A stretch of 64,000 nucleotides of DNA, from contig JADBKU010000009.1 of NCBI GenBank assembly GCA_014896235.1, forward strand, positions 116,536 to 180,535, written 5' to 3'. The notes beneath the pieces are model-generated. The model had not been told where the DNA came from. It saw nothing but the letters and a program-made list of their open reading frames with translations, and ran no database searches. Below, piece by piece: positions 35,316 to 38,889 of the stretch. The translations under genes and the position numbers were made by a program. Each line of letters starts with the position of its first letter. The first letter of the stretch is position 1. This DNA is from a bacterium. GTDB taxonomy: Bacteria; Desulfobacterota; Binatia; Binatales; Binataceae.

Positions 35316-35586
35316 TCGCACAACCGTCGGCGGATTTCTGCGATCGAACCGCGCCAAAACGGCGATGCCTGCGTGGCGGAGCGATCGAGAATCCGAAGGA
35401 TTGAAATGCCCGCTCGTTTAGCGTTGATCTGATAGTCCGCCAAGCGCGTCGTCGGCGCGGCTTATCGAGTTTTATCCAATCGTCTTGGCGATTCGCCGTA
35501 TCGCCAGAAATCGTTGAACGCAATCGCAAAGATTCGCGCCGCCGCATATTAGCGACCGGAACTTTTTCGAGTTGCCGGCTGATAAT

Positions 35587-37218
35587 ATGTTGATCAAGAC
35601 TGACGGCGCGATGATCTCCTCACCTGAAGCCGAACGTTTCCGCACCCTCTACGAGCTGGGCTGCGCTTTTTCCGCAAAGACCGAACTCGCCGAGCTGATT
35701 CCATACGTCATCGAAAAATGCCGCGAAACGCTGAACGCCGAAGCTGCTTCGGTGCTGCTGCTCGATCGCGACCGCGGTGAATTGTATTTCCCGTACGTCG
35801 CCGACTTGAATGAAACGGTGGCGAACGCGCTGCGCAACTTGCGTTTGCCCGCCGATAAAGGGATCGCCGGCGCGGCGCTGAGCGACAACCAAACCATCGT
35901 TGTGAATGACGCTCAGAATGACCCGCGTCTGTACCGCGCGATCGATCGCCAGACCGGAGCCGTGACGCGCAATCTCATCGCCACGCCGCTGCAAGGCCGC
36001 AACGGCGCAATCGGCGTGCTGGAAGTGCTCAACCGGCGCAGCGGCGCGTTCGATAGCAGCGATGTCGCGTTTCTCGAAGCGGTTTCCGAAAGCATCGCAA
36101 TCGCGATCGAAAATGCCAGCCTGTACGCGCAGCTTCGCGATTCCGAGGCGATCCTGCGCACTCAGGTCGGCGCGTTGCGGCGCGATCTGGCCAAGAACAA
36201 TCTCTTCACGGAAATCATCGGTTCAAGCCCGCCGATGCTCGAAGTTTTCCAACTCATGGAAGCGGCGGCCGCGTCGTCGATCGCGGTGATGATTCAGGGC
36301 GATACCGGAACCGGCAAAGAACTGGTCGCTCGCGGAATCCATCGCGCGAGCGCGCGCTGCGAAGCGCCGTTCGTCGCGGTAAATTGTGCGGCGATGCCGG
36401 AGACGCTGCTCGAAAGCGAATTGTTCGGCCATCGCAAAGGGGCCTTTACCGGCGCGATCCGGGACAACCCGGGCGTCTTCCGGGCCGCATCGGGCGGTGT
36501 GGTTTTTCTCGATGAAGTAACAGAGATGCCGCTTCGGATGCAGGCCAAGCTGTTGCGGGTCCTCGAACAGGAGGAAGTGATTCCGGTCGGCGAAACCTTT
36601 CCGGTGCGCGTTGACGTGCGAATCATCTCGGCCACCAATCGCGATTTGAAGGCCGAGGTCGCAGCCAACGCGTTTCGCGAGGATCTGTATTACCGGCTCG
36701 CGGCCTTCCCGATCGAACTGCCGCGGCTGCGCGACCGGCGCGAAGATATCGAGTCGCTGGCGAGCCGTTTCCTGGCTGTCTCCGCCGAGCGCCATCACAA
36801 GCGCGTGCTCGGTTTCGATCCTGCCGTGCTCGCAATCTTTGCGAACTATGATTGGCCGGGAAATGTGCGGCAGTTGCGCAATGAAATCGACCGAGCGGTC
36901 GCGATGGCGCGCGACGGCGACATCATTGGGGTCTCGCAGCTCTCTCCGGATCTGCGCGCCGCCGCAAACCGCCCCACGGCAATCAAAGCTGGCGCCGCGC
37001 CGGCGTCCGCGGCAATCACGGCCGCAGCCTCCGCCGACGCCGTTACGGGGCGCGACGGCCGCGTGCGGTCGCTGCGCGAAGCGCGCGCGGAGTTCGAGGC
37101 CGCTTTTATCAACGAAGCCCTCGCGCGCCATCATGGCAACGTCTCGCGCGCGGCGCAGGCGCTGGGAATCTCGCGCCCGGCGCTGCAGGAAAAGATAAAA
37201 ACCTATCACCTCCGATAA
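35587..37218 (+). CDS. GAF-domain sigma-54-dependent Fis-family transcriptional activator
   Basis: GAF region; [21 protein letters not shown], Fis-type C-terminal HTH. Confidence 0.92.
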
Positions 37219-37393
37219 GTTTTCCGGCAGCGGCCGGAAAGATAACTTTACGCCCGCGCGGAGGACGCCAGATGATTGGCGCCAGCGGGTCTATACAATC
37301 CAATAAATTCAACCCTTTATAGATATCCCAGTCGATCTGGCGGCTGGCATCCGAATTGCTCCATTTGGCTTTCGAGCAGTGGGGAGAATATCA

Positions 37394-37702
37394 ATGGCAA
37401 TTCGGCGCGTCAGAATCGAACATCGGGGACCAGCACATGCGACCGGTCGGCTATTTCGCTCGCCTCGGCGCCAGACCACGGACGTAGGCAGCGCGATTTT
37501 GCGCATAGCTCGATTGCGCTATCAGATTTTCCGCGAGCGATTTGGCCGCGACCCCGGACCCGACGATCCTTTGTTTTTTGACGTGTCTCAGGGCCGTCCA
37601 GTGATCGCGAATGAGACTGAAATGTTTCGACAGGTTTCGGACGCGGCCTTTGCGACCCGCGCCGATTTTCTTTCCGTCGTCAAATTTTTGGGGCTTGGAT
37701 GA
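37394..37702 (+). CDS. hypothetical protein
   Basis: MAIRRVRIEHRGPAHATGRLFRSPRRQTTDVGSAIL... intact short ORF. Confidence 0.45.
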   Translation: MAIRRVRIEHRGPAHATGRLFRSPRRQTTDVGSAILRIARLRYQIFRERFGRDPGPDDPLFFDVSQGRPVIANETEMFRQVSDAAFATRADFLSVVKFLGLG

Positions 37703-37758
37703 GCGTCAGAGCGGCTGGGACGGGGCAAGAGGGGGGGCTCTGACGCACCGCCCCAGCC
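37703..37758. other. interleaved inverted repeats and G-rich run (candidate structured RNA/DNA element)
   Basis: GCGTCAGAGC (37703-37712)/GCTCTGACGC (37737-37746); GGCTGGGACGG (37713-37723)/CCGCCCCAGCC (37748-37758). Confidence 0.5.
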
Positions 37759-38124
37759 ACAGGGGATGAACGCCACTTCCCGGAAGCGGCGCAGCCCGCA
37801 TCCTTAACCATCACGGACCTGATCTAAAGAATCAGCAAACGCCGGCCGACACGCCGATGACGGAATTACCCTGCCAGGTTCGTCGCGGCTGCCGGCCGGC
37901 GCCGTTTCAGCCAATCGCCTGTATCGAAATGGTCGGTGATGGACGCGCTTGTCGGCAATCCGTCTGATCGCCTATGAAAGGGAGGCGCGGCGCGTGCGCG
38001 ACCGGTTGGTCCGAGTTCCAAAACGCGGCCGCCCCGGCAGGGGACCGCATCGGGACATCGACAAGCCGCGCCAAGCCATTCGCTGACGCGCGCAAATTAT
38101 CTATCACGCGGAGGAATTTAGAAT

Positions 38125-38889
38125 ATGGCCGGCATACTCGACGGCAAAGTGGCGATCATCACCGGCGCCGCATCCGGAATCGGACGCGCGACTTCGCTCA
38201 TTTTCGCGCGCGAAGGCGCGAAGCTGCTGCTCGCCGATCTGCAGGAAGAGGGCGGCGCCGAAACGCTCAAAATGGTCAAGGCGGCCGGCGGCGACGCGAT
38301 CTTTTTCAAAGTGGACGTCTCGAAAGCGGCGGAGACCGAAGCGATGGTCGCCAAGGCGGTCGCGACCTACGGCAAACTCGATTGCGCGTTCAACAACGCC
38401 GGCATCGACGGCAAGGGCGGCCGCGTGCACGAGTGCACGGAAGAGAACTGGAACCGCGTGATGTCGATCAATCTGACCGGCGTATGGCTCTGCATGAAGG
38501 CTGAGATCACGCAGATGCTGAAGCAGGGCAAGGGCGGCGCGATCGTCAACACCTCGTCCGACGCGGGGCTGATCGGCGTCGCCGGATTGCCGGCCTACGT
38601 CGCGGCCAAGCATGGCGTCGCGGGACTGACCAAGGCCGCCGCGATCGAATACGGGCGGCACAATATCCGCGTCAATGCGGTCTGTCCGGGACCGATCCGC
38701 ACGCCGATGCTCGGCCGGCTGCTCAACGCGCGTCCCGAGGCCGAATCCAAAATGGCGCGGTCGGAACCGCTCAAGCGGCTCGGCGAACCTTCGGAGATCG
38801 GCGAAGCGGTGGCGTGGCTCTGCTCGGACCGCGCCTCGTACGTGCACGGATTGCCGATGCCAGTGGATGGCGGCTACATGGCGCAGTAA
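38125..38889 (+). CDS. SDR family oxidoreductase
   Basis: TGAASGIG, NNAG, YVAAK motifs. Confidence 0.92.
   Translation: MAGILDGKVAIITGAASGIGRATSLIFAREGAKLLLADLQEEGGAETLKMVKAAGGDAIFFKVDVSKAAETEAMVAKAVATYGKLDCAFNNAGIDGKGGRVHECTEENWNRVMSINLTGVWLCMKAEITQMLKQGKGGAIVNTSSDAGLIGVAGLPAYVAAKHGVAGLTKAAAIEYGRHNIRVNAVCPGPIRTPMLGRLLNARPEAESKMARSEPLKRLGEPSEIGEAVAWLCSDRASYVHGLPMPVDGGYMAQ

Follow-up and report, generated by a model that had tools for sequence, protein, structure and literature searches.

A constrained, genus-specific interleaved repeat behind a small bacterial gene, possibly part of a structured 3′ message tail

Positions 37703-37758 of the window (the whole 64 kb of DNA that was analysed) hold an interleaved inverted repeat, hereafter called element 1, which, judged by its retention in related genomes, is real, constrained and genus-specific. 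The interpretation that I consider best, at a probability of about 0.5, is that element 1 forms part of a structured tail at the 3′ end of the plus-strand message of a 107-aa ORF, a message that would perhaps include the upstream regulator gene as well. All four arms were read directly from the plus strand at the places proposed by a sequence-only reading of the same DNA: A, GCGTCAGAGC (37703-37712); B, GGCTGGGACGG (37713-37723); A′, GCTCTGACGC (37737-37746); and B′, CCGCCCCAGCC (37748-37758). A′ is the perfect complement of A (10/10), while B′ is complementary to B at 10 of 11 positions, with one A-C mismatch. The junctions likewise have the lengths claimed for them, 0 nt between A and B and 1 nt between A′ and B′. 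A conserved G-rich motif, AAGAGGGGG (37727-37735, plus strand), lies between B and A′. The window was scanned for interleaved dyads, defined as a perfect 10-bp A dyad combined with a B dyad of 11 nt in which 10 or more positions pair, and 37703-37758 was the sole site; the same scan found a site in one of 60 surrogate windows generated by a first-order Markov model. The rarity of the arrangement is unusual yet not extreme by itself, and conservation is the stronger evidence.

The order of the genes around the element is regulator, 107-aa ORF, SDR gene. The regulator gene (35572-37218), of the sigma-54 type and with a GAF domain, lies upstream of the ORF (37394-37702, plus strand, with 37394 as the probable start), whose TGA stop codon occupies 37700-37702; arm A begins at the very next nucleotide. 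On the other side stands an SDR-family oxidoreductase gene (38125-38889, plus strand; Pfam and NCBIfam matches), which is syntenic within the genus only. The spacer measures 422 nt from the ORF stop to the SDR gene, and 366 nt from the end of element 1 to the SDR ATG. The latter interval had been described as some 370 nt of empty DNA, a description that must be abandoned, since it carries a conserved hairpin (37840-37901, hereafter element 2) and a promoter-like block, TTGTCG-18-TATGAA (37949-37978, plus strand). This block, which is assigned to the SDR gene, sits downstream of both elements and is kept in 6/6 orthologous spacers. In relatives it reads TTGTC[GA]-18-TATG[AT]A, and it was missed by a consensus scan. 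A small hairpin, CTGAT-CTAAAGA-ATCAG (37819-37835), lies between the two elements in genomes G000 and G003 and is absent from G006.

Seven genomes of the genus were compared; six have an ortholog of the ORF, and in all six an SDR ortholog adjoins it. Element 1 can be recognised clearly in G000, G003 and G006, the orthologous spacers of two congeners thus keeping both helices, and the possibility raised at the outset that the element might lack conservation is answered by its retention at the orthologous spacer of relatives. A covariance search, which the sequence-only reading had proposed, found element 1 in the orthologous spacers of these three genomes (E ~1e-15 to 1e-17) and nowhere else in the genomes searched, the next best match standing at E 0.02. 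The high scores are expected, since the covariance model was built from these same three sequences; the informative point is that there are no other copies. In a pattern search, GTCAGAG-N10-40-CTCTGAC occurred once per genome in G000, G003 and G006 (A-arm spacings of 37, 38 and 40 nt) and gave 0 matches in controls. The G-rich motif is, in these comparisons, more independent evidence of constraint than the covariance matches. Each of four congeners (G000, G003, G006 and G004) has a single AAGAGGGGG-N0-2-CTCT in its genome, in every case in the orthologous spacer, and the reversed control gave 0 matches. AAGAGGGGG is also found in the orthologous spacer of G002, and AAGGGGGGG in that of G001; for scale, AAGAGGGGG has four copies in the whole 3.5 Mb genome, both strands included. 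The G004 and G002 spacers are otherwise hardly alignable, yet they keep the motif.

Within the three close genomes, 96.7% of the cells of helix A:A′ and 88.5% of those of helix B:B′ are paired, against 30-48% when the partners are slid by 1 to 3 columns as a control. The expectation of compensatory changes was borne out in part: in helix A both sides of one pair have changed together (C-G to U-A in G003), and substitutions in helix B mostly retain pairs as G-U wobbles on the plus strand, but covariation shuffle tests, with so few sequences (three to six; three for element 1), were not significant for element 1, nor for element 2. The arms of G001 are nested instead of interleaved, GACUGAUCGG/CCGAUCGUC enclosing ACCCGC/GCGGGU (p 0.001 and 0.018, shuffling either side). 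In G004, GCUUUGCGGAG can pair with CUCUUCAAAGC (p 0.012 and 0.22), which is suggestive for A:A′ only, the B:B′ pairing not being significant (p 0.12 and 0.44). Nothing in G002 clearly corresponds to element 1, and the copy of AAGAGGGGG there sits within another fold. The alternation is therefore seen in the three close genomes only. In one of them, G006, arm A can also add to the B stem by way of GCUUUGA, and the long hairpin that results is a further competitor.

Folded in isolation, the 56 nt of element 1 give -19.2 kcal/mol for A:A′ and -28.5 kcal/mol for the B:B′ fold, and the greater stability of the latter makes a co-transcriptional rearrangement from A:A′ to B:B′ plausible. AAGAGGGGG is unpaired in the A hairpin, and in the B hairpin it is partly within a small AGAG/CUCU cap. 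The assertion that the two long stems cannot coexist holds for stems of full length, while a shortened pseudoknot is possible, with 8-9 bp of A and the 7-bp GGCUGGG/CCCAGCC. The two-state switch that had been read into this geometry fares similarly: mutually exclusive helices are both kept in two relatives, whereas interleaving is absent from G001 and B:B′ fails to reach significance in G004. On these pairings, two folds compete for this short stretch, which makes it a candidate switch.

The G-U substitutions in helix B, the T tail that follows the hairpin of element 2, and the direction of both neighbouring genes suggest that element 1 likely acts as a plus-strand RNA. Its folding scores point the other way: on the plus strand they are unremarkable (z +0.1 to -1.8), and in G000, G006 and G004 they are better on the minus strand.

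Element 2 (37840-37907, plus strand) is a long G+C-rich hairpin (37840-37901) followed by a short T tail, terminator-like, and is kept in four genomes. Its plus-strand folding z lies between -3.3 and -5.4 in the four, and its hairpin of about 60 nt has a strongly conserved inner sequence, GACGGAATTACCCTGCCAGGT; it is better conserved than element 1. The tails in the four genomes are CCGTTTC, TCGTTTC, TCTTTTTAA and TGTTTCC, short in three of the four, with runs of T ranging from TTT to TTTTT (CCGTTT in G000). A consensus terminator scan of 37200-38200 found no terminator, element 2 included, and no convincing score for element 2 was obtained elsewhere in the family genomes searched. By its form and position, element 2 resembles a terminator for the regulator/ORF transcript, and the conservation of its inner loop may mean more than termination.

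These features can be combined into a pathway. As RNA polymerase passes, A would pair with A′ first; once B′ emerges, the more stable B:B′ could replace A:A′, presumably in that order. The B:B′ hairpin would leave an AGAG-GGGG-CUCU cap exposing a run of G. Some 80 nt later the transcript would end at element 2 or close to it, where a long G+C-rich hairpin is followed by a short U tail, and most likely the two hairpins would end and protect the message ahead of the separate SDR promoter. Transcription, its end at element 2, the A-to-B rearrangement and the protective role are all putative steps, deduced from the sequences compared here. That no T run follows element 1, as the sequence-only reading had remarked, is confirmed, there being none after B′ in G000, G003 or G006 and the terminator scan being negative. 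The missing T run does not alone exclude an RNA end at that place, as judged from work on E. coli (PMC13289151).

Comparison with known systems places element 1 beside several of them. Element 2 resembles an intrinsic terminator in being a stable G+C-rich hairpin past the end of a gene with a short T tail, and departs from one in that its inner sequence is conserved beyond a terminator's need; element 1 departs further, having no T run and two alternative stems. Transcription attenuators, such as the amino-acid or erm leaders, work by 1-2-3-4 alternative pairing. Element 1 recalls them through its interleaved arms, its mutually exclusive hairpins and a first arm placed at a stop codon, but it lies behind a conserved gene some 100 codons long and not in a leader, and neither of its hairpins is linked to a terminator or start site that can be seen. 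The order A-B-A′-B′ is that of an H-type pseudoknot, except that junctions of 0 and 1 nt bar full-length stems and leave the shortened form only. The element is a lineage-specific case of a known kind, with a putative function. If the 3′-tail interpretation is right, it would be a structured RNA not described before, restricted to one genus of uncultured bacteria and carrying a conserved G-rich loop.

Several other explanations were weighed against the 3′ tail. The spacer may instead give rise to a putative small RNA, either cut from the tail of the ORF message or transcribed from a promoter of its own, with element 2 as terminator and the AAGAGGGGG loop pairing with C-rich targets. Within element 1, conservation is indeed highest in the exposed G-rich segment, and element 2 is terminator-like with its conserved inner sequence; the position past a stop, the exposed conserved segment and the terminator-like end are also those of 3′UTR-derived small RNAs, a likeness read here from sequence alone. 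No promoter is seen directly upstream, however, and synonymous changes are not reduced at the 3′ end of the ORF, which also led to rejection of a small-RNA promoter hidden there; a small RNA is accordingly judged unlikely, though it deserves some weight. A DNA-level binding site, for instance for the neighbouring sigma-54-type regulator acting through the inverted GCGTCAGAGC arms or AAGAGGGGG on the SDR promoter, would account for a perfect dyad adjoining a regulator gene and for the strict conservation of the motif. Such a putative site is distinctly unlikely, given that the arm spacing varies by 1-3 bp, that the arm sequences are lost in G001 and G004, that the distance from element to promoter varies by more than 100 bp among relatives and that the SDR promoter resembles the sigma-70 type. 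Since the A-arm spacing varies, and since a complementary upstream arm remains in G001 and G004 although the arms differ, RNA fits better than a fixed DNA site.

A translation-sensed switch, in which B:B′ would form at once while A is hidden by a ribosome halted at the stop codon, A:A′ would form first when the ribosome is absent, and the two states would alter decay or read-through of the transcript, draws on the start of arm A 0-1 nt past the stop in G000, G003, G006 and G001 and on the retention of both helices in three genomes. It seems improbable, because the G004 arm lies about 12 nt and the G002 motif about 145 nt from the stop, the G001 arms are nested, and neither arm overlaps element 2, which leaves the switch with no visible output. 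The fuller proposal, that the terminating ribosome would choose between the interleaved hairpins and so set the fate of the transcript 3′ end, with the G-rich loop as an effector site, is given little credence. Equally little is given to an absence of function, that is, to a chance arrangement in G+C-rich DNA shared through the closeness of the three genomes: the surrogate windows did produce one such site and the shuffle tests on three sequences were not significant, but the motif holds a fixed place in spacers that can hardly be aligned otherwise. A K+-dependent G-quadruplex, advanced by the sequence-only reading as a third state, is scarcely credible. The window sequence does match (G3+N1-7)x4, but among six genomes the pattern is present in G000 only; four G3 tracts occur in 0/5 orthologs, and a conserved G-quadruplex function was rejected on this ground. 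An interleaved repeat spotted by eye can therefore be truly constrained though its showiest extra, the G-quadruplex, is not.

Outside the genus, no copy of element 1 was found in the genomes searched. Elsewhere in the family, in other genera, the regulator and the ORF still stand together but are followed neither by the SDR ortholog nor by the two elements, and the regulator and the ORF therefore do not need the elements. Travel of the element with the ORF was rejected, as it was not seen downstream of the ORF in 18 loci of the family, and so was travel with the SDR gene, as it is absent upstream in those other-genus loci where the SDR start was located. Across the wider class, matches to the G-rich motif are scattered, and controls match too. 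Searches of plasmids found no similar DNA. Rfam gave 0 matches at the gathering score in the window, and its best match within 37600-38130 (E 0.16) was far under its threshold. A REP-like dispersed repeat was discarded because there is one copy per genome; 6S RNA, because RF00013 has no match in the genome (a model that detects only 5/14 controls) and because there are two hairpins, not one long bubble hairpin; and stop-codon readthrough or selenocysteine insertion, because the ORF ends with TAA in G003 and G006 and the motif lies at varying distances from the stop.

In another genus of the same family, g15, one AAGAGGGGGCTCT match occurs in 6/7 genomes. Four loci that were read (L119-L122) carry a classic U-tailed terminator around AAGAGGGGGCTCT, for example GGGAGAGCCCCCTTGAAAGAGGGGGCTCTTTCCTT, so that intrinsic terminators with this motif do occur elsewhere in the family; the cluster was rejected as a relative of element 1, being an unrelated U-tailed terminator. 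The product of the 107-aa ORF was without match in Pfam and NCBIfam searches, and its fold was without match in the PDB; it is predicted to form a small helical domain (block mean pLDDT at least 90 over residues 31-100). Its family, of about 100 aa, bears the motif RFGRxPxPDDPLFFD, is likewise encoded beside a sigma-54-type regulator gene at nine loci in other genera of the family, and has weak relatives in Streptomyces and other actinobacteria.
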